Shown: in pieces, positions 4,299-52,006 of the stretch
Numbering within the stretch: position 1 is the first letter of the stretch
Layout: each line of letters begins with the position of its first letter
NCBI RefSeq assembly: GCF_025399835.1
Contig: NZ_JAODVR010000002.1
Span: forward strand, 372,001-436,000
Direction: 5' to 3'
Source: Haloarchaeobius sp. HME9146
GTDB lineage: Archaea > Halobacteriota > Halobacteria > Halobacteriales > Natrialbaceae
DNA: 64,000 bases
Notes under the pieces: model-generated
Database searches by the model: none
What the model was told of the DNA's origin: nothing
The model's input: the letters and a program-made list of their open reading frames with translations, nothing else
Position numbers and translations under genes: made by a program

Positions 4299-7200
4299 AT
4301 GAGCCAGAAATCAACTCAACCCTCCGGCGGCGGAACCGAATCGGTGCTAGCTCGAGAACTCACTCGGGTCGTTGAGCCAGTCATCGAAGCAACAGAATCT
4401 CCAGACGGCGTCGTCGACCTTCTCGACGGGGCAGGAATCGGGGAACTCCTCGTCGATGAGGAGGTCGAGAAGGTGGTCGAGGAGTTCGAACGGGACTTCG
4501 TCGAACCTGCGGAGACCATCATTAAGATAGTCGAGAATGGGTTCGGTGCCGATGACCTTGCGAAGGTCGGCGACCTCGTCGGGGCGGTCTCGACGCTGAT
4601 AGAGTCAATCAAATCCCTCGACGAATTGGAGTTCGAGAGTCCGGACGTGAGCGAACTCGGCGATGCGTTGCTCGACCACCTCGTCGTGCGCTACCTCTAC
4701 CTCTACAGACCACACGTCCACGACTTCCTGGCCATCGTCGGCGTCGTCACCGAAGGGTACGGCAGGGGCCAAGAGGAGATACAGTTGACCGGCATCGCCG
4801 AGGCGGTGCAAGACCCCAACACGGCAGCGAAGGAGACGCTCGGATGGGGGACCGACGCGTTACGGGACGAGCTGTTCCTCCGCTTCGTGGGGCACCTTGC
4901 GACCGAACAGGGCCTCACGAGCATCGTCGACGAAGCAGACGTGAACCAGTTGGATACACTCTCGTACGAGAAGACCACGCCGCCGACGTTTCCGAAGTCG
5001 GACGCGCCGACCCAGCTCGACACCACCCTCCTGGAACTTGTCGGCGACGGGTTCTCCTCGCGTGCTGGCGTGAAACTGACACCGATGCCGTTCAAGGAGG
5101 ACGACCCCCTTGGTCTCCTCCTTCAGGCGTACGCGACAGGTGGGTTCAAGCAGTCACTGTCGCTCGGGAAGGACTGGACACTGACGACTGGTATCGAGAC
5201 GAACCAGTCGGTCGGGTTCGCCGTCCGTCCGACCGGAGACGGAACCGAGTTCCAACTCGTCTCCGGGGCAGGCCTGACTGGGGATTACCACGCCGACGCC
5301 GCGCTTTCCTACGAACCCGAGTCCACCAGCGACAGCCCAGGAAAGGTTCTGCTTGGCGAACCCGATGGTTCATTCCTCGCACTGGGGTCTGTCTCCATCT
5401 CGACCGCACTCGACTACGATGGGGACTCCGGAACCGTCGCGGTCGAACTGCCCGCGTCCGGCTCAGTCCAGGTCCGCCCGAAAGGCGGCTTCTTGGAGAA
5501 AGTCCTGCCCGATGAAGTCGGGAGCGACTTCGACGTGACTGTCGGCTGGTCGACGCTCAAAGGGTTATACTTCGAAGGCGGTGCGACCCTGGAGGTGGCA
5601 CTCCCGGTCCACCAGAAACTCGGCCCACTCGACATCAAGGAGATATTCCTCTCGCTCGGATTCGACGCAGAAACCGGCGAGATAACCGTCCAGGCGGCCG
5701 CATCCGCATCCGTCAAACTCGGGCCCATCGTCGGCACCGTCACCCGAATCGGCCTCGAAACGGACCTCTCGTTCCCCGAAAACAAGGACGGGAACATGGG
5801 CGTGGTCGACCTCGAACTCGGGTTCAAGCCACCCGAAGGGGTCGGCCTCGATATCGCTGCTGGGCCGGTCACGGGCGGTGGCTACCTCGACTTCGACCCG
5901 GAGAACGAGCGCTACGCCGGGACTGGCCAACTCACGGTCCCGAGTGGCCTGAGCATCTCGGTGGTCGGGCTCATCACGACCGAACTGCCCGATGGGTCGG
6001 ACGGCTTCTCGATGATGCTCATCGTCGCGGGCGAGTTCGATGCCGTCCAGCTAGGCTTCGGCTTCACGCTGAACGGCGTCGGCGGGATGCTCGGCATCAA
6101 CCGAAAGTTCCGGAAGAAACCACTGCAGGACGTTGTCAGGCAGGGCGAGCTCGACAGCGTGCTCTTCCCCGAAGACGTGGTGGAGAACGCCCAGCGCATC
6201 ATCTCGGACGTGCGGGCTATCTTCCCGCCGACGCGGGGGACCCACGTGTTCGGGCCGATGCTCAAGATCGGCTGGGGAACACCCGCCATCATCGAGGCCT
6301 CTGTCGGTGTGGTTCTGGAGATTCCGAGCTTCCGCATCGCCATCCTCGGCAAGATCGAGATGGCACTCCCCAACCTCGAAATCGAGCGCCCCGAGGGGTT
6401 ACCGGAAGAGGTGCCGTACCCACCCATCCAGATCAACCTCGACGTGGTGGGCATCATCGACATCCCCGGGAAGACGCTGTCGCTCGACGCCTCGCTGTAC
6501 GACTCGCGCATCATGCAGTGGAAGATGTCGGGCGACATGGCGCTGCGCTCCTCGTGGGGCGATGATTCGAAGTTCCTGCTCTCCATCGGCGGGTTCAATC
6601 CCCGCTACGAGCAACCGGGCGGGTTCCCGAAGCTCGACCGCGTGAAGGTGAGTCTGGACGTGCCCGGTGGCCAACCGGTCATCGACTTCACGGGCTACCT
6701 CGCGGTCAGTTCGAACACGTTCCAGGTGGGCGCGCAGGTCAACGCCGAACTGGAGGTCGGCCCGCTTTCCATCTGGGGTGGCCTGGGCTTCGACGCGCTG
6801 TTCCGGTTCAACCCGTTCTCGTTCATCATCGATTTCTTCGCGCACTTCGGCGTAGCGTTCAAGGGCTGGGAACTGACCGTCGGCATCGACGGGACCATGT
6901 CCGGCCCGACGCCGTTCAACCTCCGGGGGAAGGCCAAGTTCTCGGTCGGCCCCTTCGACGTCTCGAAGCAGTTCGACGTGACGCTCGGGAAGGACGCGAA
7001 GACCAAGCAACTCCCCACGGCGGAGGTGCTGCCCGAACTCGTCGACGCGCTCTCGGAACCGAAGAACTGGGACGCCCAGTTGCCAGGTGACGGGAACGCT
7101 ATCGCCACACTGCGGAGTGCGAAGAGCGCAGAGGCACGCGAGCAGGCTCGCCAGTCCGCCCAGGGCGGCAGTGGTGCCGGCGACGTCGAACCCGAGCAGC

Positions 7201-8021
7201 CGATCATCGCGCATCCGCTGGGGACGCTGACGGTTCGCCAGACCGTCGTCCCGCTGAACTACCACATCGAGAAGTTCGGGGAGGCGCGACCGACCACCTA
7301 CGACGAGTTCCGCATCGCGGGTGTCACACTCGGCGGGGTCAGAGACCGCGACCGCCAGCCGGTCGACGAGGAGTTCGCACCCGCGGCATTCCGGAAGATG
7401 GACGACGCGAAGAAGCTGGAATCGGACGACTTCGTCGACCTGGAGGCCGGGACGACCGCCGGCGACATCGGGCTGGTCGTCGGTGGCGAGGGCGGCAGGG
7501 AGGACGTGACCGAGGCAGCGTTCACCTACGAGGAGGTCGTGTACGACGACGCGAGCGGCCACCGTGGCGAGAACCTCGCCGAGGTGGACGCTGGGCAGGC
7601 AGGGACGGCCCACACCGCGTTCACCGCGCACGAACTCTCGAAGGGTAAGCGCGGCGTCCAGCCCACCTCGGAGGGGCTGTTCGGCGTCGACGATGCGGAC
7701 GCCAGCGACGGCGGCCTGTTCGGTGTCGGCGAGAACGACTACGTGGTCGTCGACGTGGACACGTTCGAGCCGGTCGTCACAGACTTCGTCGGCTTCGACG
7801 ATGGCGGGGACGACGGTGACGGGCAATCCGACGAGTCAGAGACACGCGAATTCGCTGCCGTGGCCGACAGTAGCGAGGCCGAGCGCGTCCGGCCGGGGCT
7901 CCACGTGGGGACCTCGAAGGGCCGCGCACAGGTCGAACTGAAGCGCTTCGCCAGGGAGGCGGACGTGGACGAGAAACGGCTGCAGGTCGTTTCCGCGGCC
8001 AGTCTGGAGGGTTCCAGGTGA
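4299..8021 (+). CDS. DUF6603-type giant beta-rich protein, 1240 aa
   Basis: The start is 1 nt after the preceding stop. Residues 1-180 are acidic and helical. From about 230 onwards the chain is beta-rich, with many short alternating strands (GPLDIKEIFLSLGFD, LDIAAGPVTGGGYLDFD). Residues about 515-905 match my memory of DUF6603, including VGGMLGINR followed by VLFPEDVVENAQRIISDVRAIFPP and GPMLKIGWGTP. The repeated amphipathic strands suggest an elongated beta assembly, but no function is known to me. The last 300 residues are acidic and partly disordered (VGFDDGGDDGDGQSDESE near 1160). No signal peptide, transmembrane segment or catalytic motif is visible. It sits between the effector-like protein and the 1385-aa protein in the same operon, so it is probably part of the same complex. 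Confidence 0.85.
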   Translation: MSQKSTQPSGGGTESVLARELTRVVEPVIEATESPDGVVDLLDGAGIGELLVDEEVEKVVEEFERDFVEPAETIIKIVENGFGADDLAKVGDLVGAVSTLIESIKSLDELEFESPDVSELGDALLDHLVVRYLYLYRPHVHDFLAIVGVVTEGYGRGQEEIQLTGIAEAVQDPNTAAKETLGWGTDALRDELFLRFVGHLATEQGLTSIVDEADVNQLDTLSYEKTTPPTFPKSDAPTQLDTTLLELVGDGFSSRAGVKLTPMPFKEDDPLGLLLQAYATGGFKQSLSLGKDWTLTTGIETNQSVGFAVRPTGDGTEFQLVSGAGLTGDYHADAALSYEPESTSDSPGKVLLGEPDGSFLALGSVSISTALDYDGDSGTVAVELPASGSVQVRPKGGFLEKVLPDEVGSDFDVTVGWSTLKGLYFEGGATLEVALPVHQKLGPLDIKEIFLSLGFDAETGEITVQAAASASVKLGPIVGTVTRIGLETDLSFPENKDGNMGVVDLELGFKPPEGVGLDIAAGPVTGGGYLDFDPENERYAGTGQLTVPSGLSISVVGLITTELPDGSDGFSMMLIVAGEFDAVQLGFGFTLNGVGGMLGINRKFRKKPLQDVVRQGELDSVLFPEDVVENAQRIISDVRAIFPPTRGTHVFGPMLKIGWGTPAIIEASVGVVLEIPSFRIAILGKIEMALPNLEIERPEGLPEEVPYPPIQINLDVVGIIDIPGKTLSLDASLYDSRIMQWKMSGDMALRSSWGDDSKFLLSIGGFNPRYEQPGGFPKLDRVKVSLDVPGGQPVIDFTGYLAVSSNTFQVGAQVNAELEVGPLSIWGGLGFDALFRFNPFSFIIDFFAHFGVAFKGWELTVGIDGTMSGPTPFNLRGKAKFSVGPFDVSKQFDVTLGKDAKTKQLPTAEVLPELVDALSEPKNWDAQLPGDGNAIATLRSAKSAEAREQARQSAQGGSGAGDVEPEQPIIAHPLGTLTVRQTVVPLNYHIEKFGEARPTTYDEFRIAGVTLGGVRDRDRQPVDEEFAPAAFRKMDDAKKLESDDFVDLEAGTTAGDIGLVVGGEGGREDVTEAAFTYEEVVYDDASGHRGENLAEVDAGQAGTAHTAFTAHELSKGKRGVQPTSEGLFGVDDADASDGGLFGVGENDYVVVDVDTFEPVVTDFVGFDDGGDDGDGQSDESETREFAAVADSSEAERVRPGLHVGTSKGRAQVELKRFAREADVDEKRLQVVSAASLEGSR

Positions 8022-39410: not shown

Positions 39411-40679
39411 TTAGTTCATCGGTCCGTAACCGCGACCGTAGGCGTCGACAACTCCTTCATAAACACCTTCGCCGACGAAGGCCTCGTATATCTCGTCGGC
39501 CTTCGCGACGGGGTCCACGTCGTAGGCGTCGGGGTTGGCGGCCGCGCCCACCGCGTAGGCGTCGGCAATGACCGTCCCGAAGTTCGTCCCGTAGTCACGG
39601 GTCGGCATGACGGCGTAGACGTCGTCGTTCGCGATGGCTGTGACGTCCTGGTACTCGGGCGCGTCGAGCGCCTCGTACGTCTCAGTGCCGAGGTCGACGA
39701 ACAGCACCTCGGGGTCCCACTTGATGAGCGTCTCGGGGTCGATCTCGATGCGGGAGGCTCCCTTGCCGCCACCGCCGCCACCACCGCCGCCTCCGCCGCC
39801 TCCACCACCACCGCCGCCACCACCGCCCCCACCGCCTCCGTCTCCCCCACCGCCGCCACCGTCACCACTCCCGGTCGCCCCGGCCGCGACGTTCGTAACG
39901 CCGCCGAAGGTGAACGGGACGTAGCTCGGCTGGGTGAAGGTGAGCCCATGCTTGCCGCGACCGAGGTAGCCCACGTAACCCTGCGGCTTCGTCTCGATTC
40001 CCCCGGCTCGTGATTCCAGATCGGCCAGCGTGTCCTCGACGAAGGTTCGGAGTTCTGCGACACGGTCCTCGGTTCCCAGGATGGTGCCCAGGAGGTCGAG
40101 CGACCCGAAGAAGGAACTTTCGAGTTCCTCGGTCAGCCCACCCGGCTTGATGGAGACGACGGGGACGCCGAGCTGGTCCTGCATCGTGTTCGCGTCGGAC
40201 TTGCTCGCGTAGCCCGCGATGACCACGTCTGGGTCGGTCTGGAGCACACGTTCGAGGTCCGGGCTCTTCCGGGTACCGACGGTCGGCAACTCGGTGAGCT
40301 GCATGTTCGCCAGCGTGTACGGCCGGAAGGGCCGGTCCGCGTTCGAGGTCTCCAGTTGTTCGACCCCGACGACCCGCTCGACGCCACCCGCGTAGACGAC
40401 GAACCGGAGCGCCCCCGAGCCGAGCCCGACGACCCGCTCGACGTCGGCGGGAACCGTCACGGTCCGACCGACGGCGTCCGTCACCGTCTGTTCGCCCGAC
40501 TTCTCCGAGTCGCCACCGCCCGTCGTGTCCGTGCCGCCTCCAGCAGACGTATCGGTCGGGTTCGCCCCGGTTTCCGGTGCTTCCGAGGTCGTGCTGCAGC
40601 CAGCCAGTGCCGTACTCCCTCCCACAGCCAGCGCGCCGAGTCCCTGGAGGAGGCGACGACGCGAACGTTGTTCCGTCAT
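39411..40679 (-). CDS. btuF: Tat lipoprotein binding protein for cobalamin/iron-chelate importer, with polyglycine insert
   Basis: The 422-aa lipoprotein begins MTEQRSRRRLLQGLGALAVGG, a Tat signal, with lipobox LAGC near residue 27 and a Thr/Gly/Ser-rich tether. The mature domain is the BtuF/FhuD-type fold: VTDAVGRTVTVPADVERVV, then LPTVGTRKSPDLERVLQTDPDVVIAG and WDPEVLFVDLGT. Residues 274-305 are almost pure glycine, with one Asp within and one just before, and interrupt the C-terminal lobe. This is highly unusual for a folded binding protein and may be a surface loop. It is first in the operon with the permease and ATPase. Cobalamin is favoured only by context. Confidence 0.85.
   Translation of the reverse strand: MTEQRSRRRLLQGLGALAVGGSTALAGCSTTSEAPETGANPTDTSAGGGTDTTGGGDSEKSGEQTVTDAVGRTVTVPADVERVVGLGSGALRFVVYAGGVERVVGVEQLETSNADRPFRPYTLANMQLTELPTVGTRKSPDLERVLQTDPDVVIAGYASKSDANTMQDQLGVPVVSIKPGGLTEELESSFFGSLDLLGTILGTEDRVAELRTFVEDTLADLESRAGGIETKPQGYVGYLGRGKHGLTFTQPSYVPFTFGGVTNVAAGATGSGDGGGGGGDGGGGGGGGGGGGGGGGGGGGGGGGGKGASRIEIDPETLIKWDPEVLFVDLGTETYEALDAPEYQDVTAIANDDVYAVMPTRDYGTNFGTVIADAYAVGAAANPDAYDVDPVAKADEIYEAFVGEGVYEGVVDAYGRGYGPMN
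39765..39860 (-). repeat. In-frame GGN trinucleotide tract (polyglycine) in the binding-protein gene
   Basis: Thirty-two consecutive codons are GGN except one GAC: 25 glycines, one Asp, then 6 glycines when read along the plus strand. Mixed third bases (GGC, GGT, GGA, GGG) make it an imperfect microsatellite. Because the unit is 3 bp, slippage would change loop length without breaking the frame. Confidence 0.9.
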
Positions 40680-40733
40680 AGATACAACGAGTGTCACACA
40701 ACGACTAAAACTATTCGGCGTCGATACGGTCCA
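40680..40733. promoter_or_regulatory. Divergent promoter region between binding-protein and TiaS-like genes
   Basis: The 54-bp gap drives genes in both directions. TAAAACTATT (about 40705-40714) lies 20-29 nt before ATG 40734. Its reverse (AATAGTTTTA) is about the same distance before ATG 40679, so the two TATA boxes may overlap. GTGT-C-ACAC (40691-40699) is a small palindrome between them. Shared control is plausible. Confidence 0.45.
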
Positions 40734-41444
40734 ATGCGACTCCTGGTCGGAATCGACGACACCGACGCCATCGACAGCGACCACGGGACCGGACGGGTAA
40801 GCCGAATGCTCGGTGCCCAGCTAGCCGACGACCACGGTCTCGACTGGGTCGGCAGTGTTCGCCAGCAGTTCCTGGTCGACCCCCGCGTTCCCTACACCAC
40901 CCACAACAGCGCGGCGTGCCTGGTGTTCGAGGCGGATGCGCCACCCATCGACCGGATCGTCGACGACGCCGGGATGTTCCTCGAGGAGATCATGGCCGAC
41001 GTGGCCGACCCCGGCCTCTGCGTGGCTCCGGCGGGTGACGTTCCCGACGAAGTGACCGACTGGGGCCACCGCGCCCAAGACTCTGTGGTAGAGAAGGCCC
41101 AAGCATACGAGGTGGCCGAGGCTGCCGGCGTGTTCCTCGACGAGTATGGCGGCACCGGCGACGGCGTCATCGGCGCACTCGGGGCAGTCGGATTGACCGC
41201 CAACGGCGAGGACGGGCGGTTCATCGCCTACGGGAACATCCGGGAGTACGGCGAACAGGTGTCCGTGAGTCAGCTTCGAAACGACGGTATCGCCGTCGTG
41301 GACGAGGACGGCGACCCGGTAGAGGAGGGAACCGTGAACACCCACGACTGGATTCGACCGCAGCTTCGAGGAGGGCAGCCGATGCTGCCTGTCGAACCCG
41401 ACGAAAGTGATGCTGAGACGATGAAGCCCACGAACCTGAATTGA
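40734..41444 (+). CDS. TiaS-like GIDDTD protein, short form
   Basis: The 236-aa protein opens MRLLVGIDDTDAIDSDHGTGRVSRML. The GIDDTD motif is characteristic of the TiaS family (tRNA-Ile2 2-agmatinylcytidine synthetase) and relatives. Later blocks include YTTHNSAACLVFEAD and GGTGDGVIGALGAVGLTANGEDGRFI, the second also found in TiaS. TiaS itself is roughly 400 residues or more with further nucleic-acid-binding domains that are absent here. This is therefore probably a paralogue with another substrate, not the tRNA-modifying enzyme. It is divergent from the B12/iron-type importer, possibly co-regulated. Confidence 0.6.
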   Translation: MRLLVGIDDTDAIDSDHGTGRVSRMLGAQLADDHGLDWVGSVRQQFLVDPRVPYTTHNSAACLVFEADAPPIDRIVDDAGMFLEEIMADVADPGLCVAPAGDVPDEVTDWGHRAQDSVVEKAQAYEVAEAAGVFLDEYGGTGDGVIGALGAVGLTANGEDGRFIAYGNIREYGEQVSVSQLRNDGIAVVDEDGDPVEEGTVNTHDWIRPQLRGGQPMLPVEPDESDAETMKPTNLN

Positions 41445-45055: not shown

Positions 45056-45074
45056 TTTATTACTTAGCAATAAA
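45056..45074 (+). promoter_or_regulatory. TATA box with overlapping inverted repeat, dioxygenase operon
   Basis: TTTATTA (45056-45062) is centred 26 nt before ATG 45085, giving a leaderless promoter. TTTATT-N7-AATAAA forms a perfect 6-bp inverted repeat (45056-45061 with 45069-45074) that covers it. A protein bound there would block TBP, so repression is likely. Confidence 0.55.
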
Positions 45075-45084
45075 ACCAAGTGGT

Positions 45085-45864
45085 ATGCAGCTCACAGACA
45101 GCGACTTCGCCCACTACCAGCGCGAGGGGTACGTGGTGGTAGACGGACTGCTCGACGAGTCGGTCGTCGAGCGAACGAAGCGACGGCTCCAGGAGTACGT
45201 CGAGGGGTACCGTGCGGAACGGGAGTTCAGTCGGATGCTCGAACCGAAGGCGGACTCGCTCCCCGGGGACACTGGTGGAGAGGCCGCGCCGGTCCGGAAG
45301 TTCGAGGGGCTCGGGATGGTGCGCGAAGACGACGCGTTCTCAGACCTCGCCGAGGACGACGGTATCGTCTCGGTGGTCCAGCAGCTCCAGGGCCCGAACC
45401 TCAAACTCCTGCGGAGCGCGGCGATGTTGAAGCCGCCCCGGGTCGGCAGCGAGAAGAAGTTCCACCAGGACGCGGCGTACTATCCCATCCACCCGATGGA
45501 CCACGTCACGGTGTGGATCGCCCTCGACGAGGCGACGACGGAGAACGGCTGCATGCAGGTCGTACCCGGCGCGCACACGGACGGTCTCATCGAACACGAG
45601 GCACTGGAGTACGACACCGATATCACGCTGACGGGGAGACAGTACGGCCCCGAAGACACCGTGGCGCTCCCGATGGAGCCCGGCGACGTGTTGTTCCAGC
45701 ACTGCCTGTTGCCCCACTACACCGCGCCGAACACGACCGACGACTGGCGGCGCGCGTTCATCCTCGCGTACATGCGAGGTCGCTCACGGTTCACCGACGA
45801 GGAGCCGCCCGAGTGGGTCGACAGCCTGCACATCACTGGCGAAGAGTTCCCGGGGTGTGTCTGA
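45085..45864 (+). CDS. Phytanoyl-CoA dioxygenase (PhyH) family protein
   Basis: This 259-aa Fe(II)/2-oxoglutarate-dependent oxygenase has the iron-binding HxD in FHQDAAYY (His127, Asp129) and the distal His in LLPHYTAPN (His211). The 2-oxoglutarate Arg lies in WRRAFILAY. ENGCMQVVPGAHTDG and MEPGDVLFQH complete the family pattern. The substrate is unknown; PhyH proteins hydroxylate lipids, osmolytes and natural products. The leaderless start at 45085 follows a clear TATA box. It is first in an operon with the NRAMP-like carrier 2 nt downstream and a P-loop protein. Confidence 0.85.
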   Translation: MQLTDSDFAHYQREGYVVVDGLLDESVVERTKRRLQEYVEGYRAEREFSRMLEPKADSLPGDTGGEAAPVRKFEGLGMVREDDAFSDLAEDDGIVSVVQQLQGPNLKLLRSAAMLKPPRVGSEKKFHQDAAYYPIHPMDHVTVWIALDEATTENGCMQVVPGAHTDGLIEHEALEYDTDITLTGRQYGPEDTVALPMEPGDVLFQHCLLPHYTAPNTTDDWRRAFILAYMRGRSRFTDEEPPEWVDSLHITGEEFPGCV

Positions 45865-45865
45865 G

Positions 45866-47227
45866 ATGGCGACGAGTGACTCCGGGGGCCGATTCGACGC
45901 ACTGCTCTCCAGGATGGGCCCGACCTGGCTCGCGGGTGCCATCGCGGCCGGTCCGGCCACCATGGCCAGCCTGCTCACGGCCGGTGCTGGCTACGGCTAC
46001 ACCCTCCTCTGGATCGTCCTGCTGTCGGCGCTGCTCGGGGCGACGGCGCAGTTCCTCGCGATGCGGCTCGGGTTGCTGACCGAGGCGGGCATCGTCTCCG
46101 TCGTCGAGGACCGGCTCGGCTCGAGATGGGCGTGGCTGCTCGTCGGCGACGCGGTCCTCGCCTCCGGCCTGGCACAGCTGGTCATCATGAAGACGGTCGC
46201 CGACGTGAGCGCGACCATCACCGGTGTCAGCAACGTGGTCTGGGCGGTCGTCTGGGGTGTCGTCCTCGCGGTCGGGCTCGCCGGCGGTGGCTACCGTATC
46301 GCCGAGATGGGCGCGAAGGTACTCGTCTCGCTCGTGGTGCTCGCGTTCGTAGCCTCACTCGTCGTCGTCCCGGTCGACCTCGGGGCGGCAGCGACGGGGC
46401 TCGTCCCACAGATTCCCGCGGGGACCAGCGGCGCGCTCGCCGCCGCGGGCATCCTCGGCGGCGCGGTCCACATCACCCTCATCACCATGCAGTCCTACAC
46501 GATGCGCGCCAAGCAGTGGACCAGAGACGAGTACGACCTCGCGGTCACCGACATCGGGGCATCGATGCTCGTCGCCTTCGGCGTCTACAGCCTCGCCATC
46601 TTCCTCGTGGCTGCAGGCGTCCTGCACTCCGCAGGAGCAGTCTCCGCGGACGGCTTGACAGCGACCGCGGCCGCCCAGGCCCTCGGCCCGCTGGTGGGCG
46701 AGAACGCCAAGTGGCTGTTCCTGCTTGGACTCTGGGGCGCGGCCATCTCCACGCTCGGCGGGAACACGACCGTCCCCCCGTACCTGATGGCCGACAAGCT
46801 CGGCTGGGAGACCGACGTGTCCGACTCGCGGTACCGGGCCGCCATCGTCGTGACTGCGCTCGTGGGTATCGGCGGCGTCTTCCTCGGCGGCGCGTTCTTC
46901 CCGCTGCTGGTGCTGGTGCTGGCCTTCGGGCTGGTCGGGACGCCCTTCGCCATCGCGCTCGTCCTGTTCCTGCTCAACGACACCGAGACGGTGTCGGAGA
47001 CGAACTCCGTCGCCGCGAACGTCGCGGGACTCGTCCTCATCGGTGTCACCACCGTCACGGCCGGGTCGTTCCTTCGGGGACAGGTCGCTGCGGGTCTCGG
47101 TGACCCCATCACGCTGTTCGTGGTCATCTTCGCCGCGGTGCTCGGCGTGGCGACCCTCGGGTTGCTGGCGCTGTTCGTCCGGGACTGGGGCAGCCGCGAG
47201 CCAGCCGCACAGGAATCGCTCGACTGA
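45866..47227 (+). CDS. NRAMP-like transporter lacking the DPGN metal motif
   Basis: This 453-aa protein has about 11 helices and the general NRAMP/APC pattern. It opens GPTWLAGAIAAGPATMASLLTAGAGYGYTLLW, matching NRAMP helix 1, but the metal-binding DPGN is GPAT at residues 29-32. Helix 6 reads GILGGAVHITLITMQSYTMRAKQW, without the usual MPH. Transport of the standard divalent metals by the classical site is therefore unlikely. Another substrate, or Mg-like handling as in NRAMP-related carriers, is possible. It is co-transcribed with a PhyH dioxygenase, whose substrate or product might be carried. ATG 45866 lies one base after the upstream stop. Confidence 0.8.
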   Translation: MATSDSGGRFDALLSRMGPTWLAGAIAAGPATMASLLTAGAGYGYTLLWIVLLSALLGATAQFLAMRLGLLTEAGIVSVVEDRLGSRWAWLLVGDAVLASGLAQLVIMKTVADVSATITGVSNVVWAVVWGVVLAVGLAGGGYRIAEMGAKVLVSLVVLAFVASLVVVPVDLGAAATGLVPQIPAGTSGALAAAGILGGAVHITLITMQSYTMRAKQWTRDEYDLAVTDIGASMLVAFGVYSLAIFLVAAGVLHSAGAVSADGLTATAAAQALGPLVGENAKWLFLLGLWGAAISTLGGNTTVPPYLMADKLGWETDVSDSRYRAAIVVTALVGIGGVFLGGAFFPLLVLVLAFGLVGTPFAIALVLFLLNDTETVSETNSVAANVAGLVLIGVTTVTAGSFLRGQVAAGLGDPITLFVVIFAAVLGVATLGLLALFVRDWGSREPAAQESLD

Positions 47228-47781
47228 TGCCCGACCTGCCGTTCCCGCTGTCGGGCTCGACGCTCATCGTGGGTCCCTCGAACAGTGGGAAGACCCGGCT
47301 CACGGCACAGGCACTCGACGCCTGGATTGGCGAGCACGGGGCAGAGGGCGTCGTCGTGCTGGAGTTCGCGCCCGAGGTCGAGCGCGATGGGGTGCTCCTC
47401 GGGGGGCGGCTCTCGCAGTTCACCAGGGTTCCGGACGCGGCCTGGCACGGCGTGCTGGAGGCCCACGCGCCCCGGGCAGACAGCGACTCCGAGATGGGAG
47501 CGATGCAGCTGGCCGAGGAGAACGCAACACGTGCCTACGAACTGGTCGACGCCGCGCCAGCAGACCCCACGGCCGTCTTCGTCAACGACGCGACCATCGC
47601 GTTGCAGGCCGAGGCCGACGCGACCGGGCGGTTGACGAGCTACTGTGACCGGGCGACCGTGGCGGTCCTGAACGCCTTCGAGAGCGACGAACTCGGAAGC
47701 GACGACCCGGTGTCGCGAAACGAGCGTGCGGCACTACGTCGGCTTCGGGCGTGGACAGAGCGGGTCGTCGAGCTCGGATGA
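47227..47781 (+). CDS. P-loop NTPase-like protein, 184 aa
   Basis: The protein begins with a beta strand and GPSNSGKTRLTAQAL, a Walker A motif at residues 16-23. A possible Walker B strand with Asp occurs in PTAVFVNDATIAL near 115. I recognise no family beyond P-loop NTPase. ATG 47227 overlaps the transporter stop (TGATG), so it belongs to the same operon. No link to the transport role is visible. Confidence 0.65.
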   Translation: MPDLPFPLSGSTLIVGPSNSGKTRLTAQALDAWIGEHGAEGVVVLEFAPEVERDGVLLGGRLSQFTRVPDAAWHGVLEAHAPRADSDSEMGAMQLAEENATRAYELVDAAPADPTAVFVNDATIALQAEADATGRLTSYCDRATVAVLNAFESDELGSDDPVSRNERAALRRLRAWTERVVELG

Positions 47782-49014: not shown

Positions 49015-50547
49015 TCACTCCTCCTGCTCGCGCCCCCCGTCTGCCATCGGCTCGTCGAGCCGCCGAATCTCCCGGGCGAGCCGGTCGAAATCGAAGTCAG
49101 CGTCTGCGACGCGGGCCGCGACGAGCGCCAGCCCCGCAGAGACCAGGAACGCGCCAGCGAAGGAGGTGAGGTACAGCGGGTCCGCCGCAGGCAACAGGTC
49201 GCCGACGACCGGAATAGACGTGATGTACCCCCGAAGGTCCGGGAAGTACGCGAGCCCGACCGCGAGGCCACCGAGACTACTCACGAGCGCGCCCGGGCCG
49301 GTGATTCGCTCCGAATAGAGTCCGTACACGAGTGGGAACGCGACCGCAGCCCCGAGCAGGTCCGCGAGGAAGAACAGTCGAAGGACACTCTGCGCCCGGA
49401 GGCTGACGTAGATGGCCGCGACCGCGACGACCACGGTGAAGGCCCGCGAGCCGAGGGCGAGCTGGTGGTCGCTCGGACCGGAGAGGAGGCGGGCGAGGTC
49501 GGCCGTCACGAGGCTCGACAGCGCGTTGAACAGCGTGTCCACGGAGCTCATGACGAGCAACAGCGCGAGCAGGACGACCGCGAGGACGAGCCACTCGGGG
49601 AAGGCGCTCTGCAGGAGGACGAAGAACGCCACGTCCGCGTTGTAGCCCGAACTCGTGATGTCCGTGACCACGTCGGCGTTTCCGACCGCGATGATACCGA
49701 AGAGTGCGGCGAAGAAGACGAGGCCGCCATTGAGGAGGCTCGCCCGTCTGAAGCTGCTGGCGACGGTCTCGCTGTCCTTCCCGGCGTAGATTCGTTGCCA
49801 CCAGGTCTGGTTGAGCAGTTCCGCACCGAGGATAGCAAAGGAGAGCGCGACGCCGAACTGCAGGCCGGCGGCAAAGCCGGCGTCCAGCAGCGTCGGGCTG
49901 GCGGTCTGTACGCCCTCGTACACCTGTCCGGGGCCACCGAGGGCGACGATTGCGCCACCGAACGTCAACAGGAGCAGGGGCAGGACCAGCAGCGCCTGCA
50001 CCGTGTCGGTGAACAGGCTCGCCCGGAGGCCACCGTATCCGGTGTAGAGCAGCACGAACCCACCCACGAGGACGGCGGTCTGCCACTGGGGAACCCCGGC
50101 GACCAGGGCGAGCGCGCCCGCGATACCGGTCAACTCGGCGGCGAGGAAAATGAACATGTAGAGCGCACTCACGAGCACGACGAACCCGTACATGGTGTCC
50201 CCGTACCGGGCGTGGGCGTACTCGGTGAGCGAGTGCCCGTCCGGGATGAGCTGGCGGATGCGCGGGCCGAGTTTCGAGTACACGAGCATCGGGACCGCCT
50301 CGCCGATGGCGTAGCCGACGACCGCGGCGATGCCGAATCCTGCACCGGCTTCCGGAGCTGAGAACAGTATCCAGACACCCATGACCGACGCGACCAGCGT
50401 CGCGGTCGTCCGCCGTCCCCCCGCGGAGTTCCGGGCCGTGATGAGGTCCTCCACCGAGCCGACGCGGCCGCGCGAGTGCCAGAGCCCCAGGGCGGTGAAG
50501 ACGACGAGCGTCGCGACCGTGAGCGAGAGCGCGAGCGCAGTGCTCAC
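49015..50547 (-). CDS. Sodium:solute symporter family protein, probable thiamine-precursor uptake
   Basis: The 510-aa SSS-family carrier has about 13 helices. The first helix region and ARNSAGGRRTTATLVASVMGVWILFSAPEAG are typical of the fold, as is the Ser-rich MSSVDTLFNALSSLVTADL sodium-site helix. The substrate is not set by the sequence. Two TenA genes directly upstream in the same operon, with 4-nt overlaps, point to a pyrimidine or thiamine degradation product. GTG 50547 was chosen because it overlaps the TenA stop as GTGA. Confidence 0.82.
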   Translation of the reverse strand: MSTALALSLTVATLVVFTALGLWHSRGRVGSVEDLITARNSAGGRRTTATLVASVMGVWILFSAPEAGAGFGIAAVVGYAIGEAVPMLVYSKLGPRIRQLIPDGHSLTEYAHARYGDTMYGFVVLVSALYMFIFLAAELTGIAGALALVAGVPQWQTAVLVGGFVLLYTGYGGLRASLFTDTVQALLVLPLLLLTFGGAIVALGGPGQVYEGVQTASPTLLDAGFAAGLQFGVALSFAILGAELLNQTWWQRIYAGKDSETVASSFRRASLLNGGLVFFAALFGIIAVGNADVVTDITSSGYNADVAFFVLLQSAFPEWLVLAVVLLALLLVMSSVDTLFNALSSLVTADLARLLSGPSDHQLALGSRAFTVVVAVAAIYVSLRAQSVLRLFFLADLLGAAVAFPLVYGLYSERITGPGALVSSLGGLAVGLAYFPDLRGYITSIPVVGDLLPAADPLYLTSFAGAFLVSAGLALVAARVADADFDFDRLAREIRRLDEPMADGGREQEE

Positions 50548-51266
50548 CAACGCGTCTCACCCCCTGCGACCGCCTCGGATTCACCGTAGGCCGCATCGAA
50601 GAACGCGACCTCGAGTTCGACCGTCCGGCGGAACAGGCGGGCGAGTCGTTCCTGTCGTCGGGGTGCAGCCTCGGCCCCGACCCGGTCGAGTTCCGACCGG
50701 AGCCAATCGACGAACGACTCGAACGCGGGCGTCGCGTGCAGGTCGACCCACTCCGCGAGGTAGAACCGGGACTGCTCCTGGTCAGCGACCGCGGTCGCCC
50801 ACGCCAGGTACACCCACTCTGCGGGCACGAGCACGGCCAGGGTCTCGGCGTAGTCTCCCTGCGCGGCGGCGCGGCCGAGCAGGTCCACGAAGGCTCGCGT
50901 CGGCGGGAGCAGGTCGGGGTTCTCGTACTCGGATTCGGTGACCCCCAGTGCCTCGAACGACCGCTCGAAGTAGTCGTTCTCCTCGTCGGTCAGGCTCCCC
51001 AGGAAGTCGGTGAGCCGCGATTTCGCCGCCATCGTCGGAGCCTGCCCGACGGCGTGACCGAACGTCCCGACCAGCGTCTCGACGAAGGCGTAGTCCTGCA
51101 GGAGGTAGCGCTCGAAGGTCGCATCGTCGACATCGTCGGCACCGAGTTCACGGGTGAAGCGATGCTCGGTCGCTGCCTGCCAGTCCGCCCCCGTCCGCTC
51201 TCGAAGCCAGTCGGTGAACCGCGGTTCGTCCCGGGCCGCGGCGTACTGCTCGAACTCGCCAGTCAT
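50544..51266 (-). CDS. tenA: TenA family protein lacking the active-site cysteine (TenA_E type)
   Basis: The 240-aa TenA/thiaminase II fold protein has RYLLQDYAFVETL and LAVLVPAEWVYLAWA. At the position of the catalytic Cys it has Ala149 followed by Glu (VPAEW), so it belongs to the Cys-less, Glu-type branch. That branch is known from plants and microbes to act on aminopyrimidine or N-formylaminopyrimidine breakdown products. ATG 51266 overlaps the upstream tenA stop as ATGA, and its own stop overlaps the symporter start. Confidence 0.85.
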   Translation of the reverse strand: MTGEFEQYAAARDEPRFTDWLRERTGADWQAATEHRFTRELGADDVDDATFERYLLQDYAFVETLVGTFGHAVGQAPTMAAKSRLTDFLGSLTDEENDYFERSFEALGVTESEYENPDLLPPTRAFVDLLGRAAAQGDYAETLAVLVPAEWVYLAWATAVADQEQSRFYLAEWVDLHATPAFESFVDWLRSELDRVGAEAAPRRQERLARLFRRTVELEVAFFDAAYGESEAVAGGETRW

Positions 51267-51928
51267 AGCGGCCACTCCTCCTCGGTCCACGCCGCCTCCC
51301 AGAAGAGGTACTCGTACTGTGCGGAGGTCCGGAACAGGTCACGGTATCGGGCGTGGTCGGTCTCCGTCCCGTCCGCGGCCACCTGGTCCAGCAGGTCCTT
51401 GCACCACTCGGTGAGTTCGCTGAACTCCTCGCCGGCGTACATCTCGACCCACGCAGCGTACTGTTCGTGGTCGGGCGTGCCCTGCGCCGCGAGTCGTTTT
51501 CCAGTCTCGTTGAAGCCCCACATGCACGGGAGCAGCGCCGCAACGAGGTCGCCGAAGGTGCCGTGCGAGGCCGTCCGAACCAGGAAGTCGGTGTAGGCCC
51601 GGGTCGTGGGCGACGGGCGGGTCGCCGCGAGTTCTGCCTCGTCGATGCCGAACTCGGCGGCGTAGGACCGGTGCAGGTCCATCTCCGTGTTGACCGTGGA
51701 ATCGAGGAGCTGTGCGAACGTCCCCATCGTGTCCAGGTCGGGTGCCTTCGCGGCCCCCAACGCGAACAGTCGACTGTACTCGACCAGATAGACGTAATCC
51801 TGTCTGACCCAGTACCGGAACGGCTCCTCGTCGAGGCTGCCGTCACCGAGTCGCACGACCATCGGGTGCTCGACCATGGCCTCCCAGCACGCGTCGGCCT
51901 CCGCTCGTATCTCGTCCGTGAACGCCAT
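51263..51928 (-). CDS. tenA: TenA family aminopyrimidine aminohydrolase, cysteine type (TenA_C)
   Basis: The 221-aa protein has the TenA core FRYWVRQDYVYLVEYSRLFALGAAKAP and VAALLPCMWGFNETGKRL with the nucleophile Cys135, the same number as in Bacillus subtilis TenA. It hydrolyses aminopyrimidine to hydroxypyrimidine (HMP) for thiamine salvage. It is first in the tenA-tenA-symporter operon. The promoter has a TATA-like element about 32 nt upstream and a pair of direct repeats beyond it. Confidence 0.9.
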   Translation of the reverse strand: MAFTDEIRAEADACWEAMVEHPMVVRLGDGSLDEEPFRYWVRQDYVYLVEYSRLFALGAAKAPDLDTMGTFAQLLDSTVNTEMDLHRSYAAEFGIDEAELAATRPSPTTRAYTDFLVRTASHGTFGDLVAALLPCMWGFNETGKRLAAQGTPDHEQYAAWVEMYAGEEFSELTEWCKDLLDQVAADGTETDHARYRDLFRTSAQYEYLFWEAAWTEEEWPL

Positions 51929-51956: not shown

Positions 51957-51984
51957 GTATTATCATCGAGTCATACCACCGAGT
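51957..51984 (-). promoter_or_regulatory. tenA operon promoter with tandem direct repeats
   Basis: On the minus strand ATAATAC (51957-51963) is the TATA element, 32 nt before ATG 51928. Overlapping and upstream are two 11-bp direct repeats 13 bp apart: ACTCGATGATA (51961-51971) and ACTCGGTGGTA (51974-51984). The helical-turn-like spacing fits one regulator bound twice. Archaea use ThiR for thiamine genes; I cannot say whether this matches its site. Confidence 0.5.
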
Positions 51985-52006
51985 TATCTCCGGGTGGGAG
52001 CGGGAC

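Follow-up and report, generated by a model that had tools for sequence, protein, structure and literature searches.

Organization of the locus

The stretch of DNA analysed here (the window) comprises 64,000 nucleotides, positions 372001-436000, of a 675-kb contig of the haloarchaeon Haloarchaeobius sp. HME9146. Three genes follow one another head to tail on its plus strand and are referred to below as the trio. They encode a PhyH-type Fe(II)/2-oxoglutarate dioxygenase of 259 amino acids (45085..45864; PF05721, E=1.7e-38), an NRAMP-related transporter of 453 amino acids (45866..47227; PF01566, E=6.2e-69; GPAT at residues 29-32 and H202) and a small P-loop NTPase/kinase-like protein of 184 amino acids (47227..47781), recognized by a Walker A motif and a structural model with a predicted local distance difference test score (pLDDT) of 93. 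The start of the transporter gene is ambiguous (GTG 45857 or ATG 45866). By tblastn within the window, the PhyH match ends 5 bp 5′ of the transporter gene and the P-loop gene starts 3 bp 3′ of it. These gaps of a few bases support a single operon, as had been proposed in a preliminary description of this DNA, which had also placed all three genes correctly. Public records label the transporter 'divalent metal cation transporter'.

The operator and the thiamine regulon

At the start of the trio lies an operator-like 15-bp palindrome (TAAAACCAAGTGGTA; 45071..45085, plus strand), the final base of which is also the first base of the PhyH start codon; the palindrome abuts the ATG in thiC and thi4 promoters as well. 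A second, overlapping operator half (TATTACTTAGCAATA; 45058..45072, plus strand), read by comparison with thiC promoters, reproduces their layout. The shared palindrome was first suspected from upstream sequences. To avoid circularity, we built a position weight matrix by expectation maximization from random seeds on 60 promoters only (30 thiC and 30 thi4 loci), which gave the consensus TA[TC][CA]AC[CT]TAGT[TGA][GA]TA with 17.9 bits. Promoters were scanned from -150 to +10; for 1287 controls taken at the same loci, the 99% point was 10.6 bits and the maximum 16.8 bits. The palindrome in front of the trio scored 18.3 bits, above all 1287 controls.

Sites above 10.6 bits were present in 84 of 123 transporter promoters, 13 of 22 PhyH promoters, nine of ten promoters of TENA2-type tenA genes and nine of 13 thiD-thiN promoters, as well as in two of ten TENA1-type tenA, four of 13 symporter and two of 16 HTH-ThiN promoters (HTH, helix-turn-helix). 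None of the 55 P-loop genes, which sit inside operons, had one. The operator was present at 71 of the 92 transporter genes that come first in their transcription unit; where the transporter gene immediately follows PhyH or a thiamine gene in the same orientation, 16 of 21 had no site, as expected inside an operon.

Across the 4.19-Mb genome, a strict consensus (TAHMACYNRGTDRT) gave ten matches at seven places, and the reversed control pattern gave three matches. The seven sites precede thiD-thiN, thi4, thiC, tenA, the gene of a thiamine pyrophosphate (TPP)-dependent E1 dehydrogenase, the trio operon and a small HTH regulator gene, the last perhaps by chance. The E1 site lies on the same contig outside the window (locus L338, 1-1472, minus strand; near 177515), about 30 bp 5′ of the gene, which is for a TPP-dependent 2-oxo-acid dehydrogenase; its position suggests that a TPP-using enzyme may share a regulon with TPP synthesis.

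The genome also encodes an HTH-ThiN protein (a 298-amino-acid open reading frame, its helix-turn-helix judged by eye and by likeness to the protein of locus L069), which we take to be a regulator of the ThiR type. The archaeal ThiR regulon, reportedly treated in Rodionov 2017 and Hwang 2017, is said to combine an HTH-ThiN regulator with palindromic operators before thiamine genes, and the system described here would have both in common with it. ThiR is stated elsewhere to be a thiamine regulator (PMC12029414). Judged by its operator, the trio operon very likely belongs to the thiamine regulon. Since this operator is the same as that of thiC, thi4, thiD-thiN and tenA, low levels of thiamine phosphates very probably induce the operon, most likely through the encoded ThiR-type protein.

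The altered site of the transporter

Both canonical Slc11/NRAMP motifs, DPGN in helix 1 and MPH in helix 6, are missing from the transporter. In a profile alignment to MntH of D. radiodurans, GPAT aligns under DPGN and HIT under MPH. The same alignment places V97, Q104 and I107 at three acidic positions of helix 3, which we take to be those forming the proton path of DraNramp, and the acidic path is thus not kept. The NRAMP/LeuT fold, in contrast, is retained: an AlphaFold2 model (pLDDT 87) matched MntH with a VIA-align Z of 48.5 (root-mean-square deviation (rmsd) 2.1, 374 residues aligned, 24% identity), and has two short non-helical breaks, one beside GPA in helix 1 and the other at H202 in helix 6. 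The substituted motifs in a kept fold, read by the preliminary description from the sequence, were therefore borne out.

The substitutions extend to the whole clade. Site counts used 119 complete haloarchaeal orthologues minus one broken row, and matches starting past query residue 40 were left out of the motif test. G29, P30 and A31 were invariant in all 118 orthologues, and residue 32 was Thr in 106 and Ser in 12. H202, at the old Met position of MPH, was likewise invariant, followed by Ile or Val and then almost always by Thr. The canonical metal site, which had been described as gone from the window protein, is by this alignment lost clade-wide. Since a changed site that is constant in every orthologue reflects neither chance nor decay, what replaces it is a different site maintained under selection. 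The row left out comes from genome G140 (locus L183; 6164-7426, plus strand), where the N-terminus of the transporter appears frame-shifted (two tblastn pieces).

No DPGN-type NRAMP was found among the PF01566 proteins of this genome. Its other clear PF01566 protein (locus L186, about 5105-6226, minus strand; C1:203125-204168) represents a second non-canonical type, its helix 1 carrying GPGT.

Among characterized relatives, the Mg2+ transporter EleNRMT shares the fold (Z 47.4, rmsd 2.5, 388 residues aligned) and also has altered site residues. NRMTs, however, are described as keeping the helix-1 Asp within DxxG (PMC8806188), whereas the transporter has G29-P-A-T there instead. The Nramp-related 'orphan' or 'G-motif' proteins of PF01566 are described as being without both DPGN and MPH (PMC12873925, PMC9606685, PMC10606218), as is the transporter; the substitutions given in PMC10606218 imply Val at the helix-6 Met site, where the clade studied here has His. 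According to a 2026 preprint, Nramp-related groups apart from NRMT-like and G-motif 3 are entirely uncharacterized, and this diverse part of the superfamily without the metal motif has no known substrate (PMC12873925).

The partner proteins and their association with the transporter

Proteins of the PhyH family hold iron through a histidine-aspartate-histidine triad and 2-oxoglutarate through an arginine. H127, D129, H211 and R222/R223 were kept in 22 of 22 PhyH orthologues, so that the HxD...H triad and the conserved arginines are intact. The closest solved structure is EvdO2 (E=2.3e-25), and the gene is the sole member of its family in this genome. The Walker A motif of the P-loop protein, GPSNSGKT, is clear, but Pfam gives only sub-threshold AAA matches and no family above the cut-off. 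Its model is confident and RecA/kinase-like, with VIA-align Z scores of 12.8 to CobA and CobU and 12.3 to type II thymidine kinase, and with RecA-type proteins within 11.3-12.8. Several P-loop families tie in this fold search, so that 'kinase' is a guess.

Of 292 haloarchaeal genomes surveyed, 136 encode a member of the transporter clade, 65 the P-loop protein and 22 an intact PhyH orthologue; the transporter was present in every one of the 22 PhyH genomes and of the 65 P-loop genomes. Orthologues were also looked for beyond the class, in a search that did not reach bacterial relatives. The best 80 of 152 relatives, Haloferax species among them, were all haloarchaea by record title, save one titled uncultured archaeon, and a scan of the phylum matched 11 of 196 genomes, all within the window's own order.

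For neighbourhood counts we used 124 fetched transporter loci from 46 genera, about a dozen further transporter loci lying outside this set; neighbouring genes were called by GC-frame scoring and tblastn. The other NRAMP of the genome (L186) and seven PhyH-only loci were left out of these counts, and L183 was also left out of the tree. PhyH lay within 400 bp of the transporter gene in 16 of the 124 loci (12 of 46 genera; one of the 16 is a remnant). The P-loop gene was a far commoner companion, found within 400 bp at 55 loci in 22 genera. PhyH occurs beside the transporter both co-directionally and divergently, its presence changes at least eight times on a quick tree, and seven of the 22 PhyH genes sit elsewhere in their genomes, away from the transporter. 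The remnant (locus L058, upstream of 6697) consists of two fragments of 68% identity directly 5′ of an intact transporter gene, indicating that PhyH can be lost and the transporter retained. PhyH was thus rejected as an obligate partner, and the suggestion that the two genes might always be neighbours did not hold. The pairing picked out by the preliminary description is real, but neither obligate nor dominant.

Standalone PhyH orthologues occur in genus g41 (loci L175-L179, around 6250-7250, minus strand) in a conserved neighbourhood that includes a creatininase-like gene, named from sequence reading. Their promoters scored 5.9 to 13.7 bits with the operator matrix.

Thiamine genes around the transporter

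The recurrent neighbours of the transporter that we identified were TenA, HTH-ThiN, ThiD-ThiN and a sodium:solute symporter. A tenA, thiD-thiN or HTH-ThiN gene lay within 6 kb in 32 of the 124 loci (16 of 46 genera), and relatives of the symporter in 13. Within the window itself, the opposite strand carries a tenA-tenA-symporter operon 1.8 kb downstream. Annotated plasmids show similar arrangements: on that of Halobaculum roseum the transporter, the P-loop gene, the symporter, two tenA genes and thiD stand in a row, Halobacterium hubeiense has the order tenA-transporter-P-loop and Haloferax larsenii has tenA-transporter. Two of the five plasmids viewed had no thiamine neighbours, those of Halalkalicoccus jeotgali (PhyH-transporter-P-loop) and Halarchaeum sp. 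CBA1220 (none of these neighbours). The operator shared with thiC, thi4 and tenA and the gene neighbourhood together point to vitamers of thiamine (vitamin B1) as the candidate substrate class.

ThiC was found in 96 of 136 genomes with the transporter versus 82 of 156 without it (Fisher p=0.002, not corrected for kinship). Absence of ThiC was thus discarded as a clue to the substrate: it is genomes with ThiC that more often carry the transporter, which gives no pointer to pyrimidine auxotrophy. For the standalone PhyH genes, no thi neighbours that would suggest a thiamine link were seen in seven loci.

Discussion

We consider it likely, from the operator and the gene order, that the trio is a salvage operon of the thiamine regulon and that its transporter takes up a precursor of B1 or a product of its breakdown. 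After induction, an NRAMP-fold carrier that has lost the metal ligands would take up an organic vitamer, such as hydroxymethylpyrimidine (HMP), its aminomethyl or formyl breakdown products, a thiazole or thiamine itself. In the few lineages that have it, PhyH would hydroxylate the imported compound or a damaged derivative to a usable precursor, and its phosphorylation may be the role of the P-loop protein. The route to thiamine phosphate would be completed by TenA and ThiD-ThiN, encoded next door or elsewhere. The oxidative part of this scheme is unlikely. In its fullest form, which we also regard as rather doubtful, the trio would be an oxygen-dependent B1 salvage module: the carrier would import a pyrimidine or thiazole that is damaged or incomplete, PhyH would hydroxylate it, for example at the 5-methyl of the pyrimidine to give hydroxymethylpyrimidine without ThiC, and the thymidine-kinase-like P-loop protein would phosphorylate it. 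If this is true, the NRAMP family would include a transporter for a vitamin, and there would be a new chemical entry to thiamine.

Several observations weigh against a salvage operon for B1 vitamers. No recognized thiamine gene lies within 6 kb at 92 of the 124 transporter loci, thi neighbours were not seen at the seven standalone PhyH loci, and most carriers of the transporter, having ThiC, can make the pyrimidine themselves. Nine of the 22 PhyH promoters fall under the 99% threshold, eight of them between 95% and 99%. Run on eight other genomes, the strict consensus picks up promoters of thiC, thi4, PhyH or the transporter in several, yet the reversed control pattern is about half as frequent there as the real one; the clean result from a single genome is therefore not to be generalized without the matrix. 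Finally, B. subtilis YcsG (MntG), a related NRAMP without the motif, is reported to be a manganese importer that raises cell manganese (PMC10448178).

This last report also favours a carrier that has remained a transporter of metal (Fe2+, Mn2+ or Mg2+), with H202 as a new ligand, and that stands in the thiamine regulon since thiamine enzymes need metal: ThiC has an iron-sulphur cluster, Thi4 and PhyH use iron and TPP enzymes use magnesium. Membership of PF01566 and the invariance of H202 fit such a carrier, as does the report that EcoDMT site mutants, M235A and an NRMT-like triple mutant, still transport Mn2+ (PMC8806188). The same source, however, calls the helix-1 Asp universally conserved in SLC11 and states that its mutation strongly compromises transport, and this residue is Gly in every orthologue here. 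The helix-1 Asn is also replaced, by Thr or Ser, Val, Gln and Ile occupy the acidic positions of the proton path in the transporter of the window, and the neighbours are genes of pyrimidine salvage, not recognized metal genes. The case of YcsG is itself contested: growth of C. glutamicum on 5-oxoproline is reported to need PxpT, which shares 50% identity with YcsG (PMC13274462). The preliminary description had looked to homologues with the same motif that move manganese or iron normally as the counter-case to its reading of the site, and YcsG is the one candidate that came up; it would stand as a metal-motif-less homologue with a manganese claim. We thus find metal transport improbable, and an organic substrate is the better reading of the 'unusual substrate' first proposed.

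Sequence does not reveal the direction of transport, and the carrier might instead export a B1-related compound, such as a toxic antimetabolite or a surplus breakdown product; TenA and oxygenases can serve detoxification too. Export is nonetheless very unlikely, given that thiC and thi4, with which the operator is shared, serve biosynthesis and should be active at B1 scarcity, and that the cited NRAMP-family members with a reported function are importers. One of the seven operator sites precedes the gene of a TPP-dependent E1 dehydrogenase, which would fit uptake not of a B1 vitamer but of a compound on which TPP-dependent enzymes act, such as a 2-oxo acid. Across loci, however, the recurrent neighbours are tenA, thiD-thiN and HTH-ThiN, and an E1-like gene stands two genes upstream in only a few loci of one group, in which gene order is otherwise fixed; we hold this explanation very unlikely as well.

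Uptake of a B1 vitamer has partial precedents. PxpT and YcsG are likewise NRAMP-family carriers whose operon also encodes enzymes of organic metabolism, although with another pathway and other partners, and the YcsG chain of PDB model 9a52 matches the transporter model with Z 44.0 (rmsd 3.5, 397 residues aligned, 17% identity over the aligned part). The transporter would thus be a second case of the NRAMP fold serving organic metabolism. CytX and PLUTO, which belong to the NCS1 family and not to NRAMP, have been proposed as HMP transporters on the basis of their clustering with thi genes and occur in organisms without ThiC (PMC5874261). In a study of thiamine salvage, the archaeal TenA_E sequences recovered are largely from Halobacteria and Haloferacales, and the transporters for the thiamine breakdown products N-formyl-4-amino-5-aminomethyl-2-methylpyrimidine (FAMP) and 4-amino-5-aminomethyl-2-methylpyrimidine (AmMP) are named as unclear (PMC10470507); the carrier is a candidate answer to that question. 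The regulatory link to B1 thus provides a testable substrate class for one haloarchaeal clade of metal-motif-less NRAMP proteins. No link between NRAMP proteins and thiamine was found in the literature at the level of titles and abstracts, in a search that did not cover Rodionov 2017 and Hwang 2017. These papers on the ThiR regulon may already list the transporter as a regulon member, which would lower the novelty.

Other genes in the window

The operon downstream of the trio is preceded by an operator-like site (51974..51987, plus strand), one of the seven consensus sites in the genome. Its genes, all on the minus strand, encode a TenA of the thiaminase II/aminopyrimidine aminohydrolase type (51263..51928; TIGR04306, 188.1 bits against a cut-off of 130), a divergent TenA-family paralogue (50544..51266; PF03070, E=7.7e-26), which falls under the NCBIfam thiaminase II cut-off, and a sodium:solute symporter (49015..50550; PF00474, E=2.4e-32), probably co-transcribed with the two tenA genes. 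The region 49015-51928 thus joins an adjacent pair of tenA genes of different subtypes to a symporter that is a further candidate transporter of B1 vitamers. Elsewhere in the window (39411-40784, minus strand), an open reading frame for a periplasmic-binding-protein-like product contains a long glycine run in the middle of the protein, possibly an oddity of repeat length or assembly.

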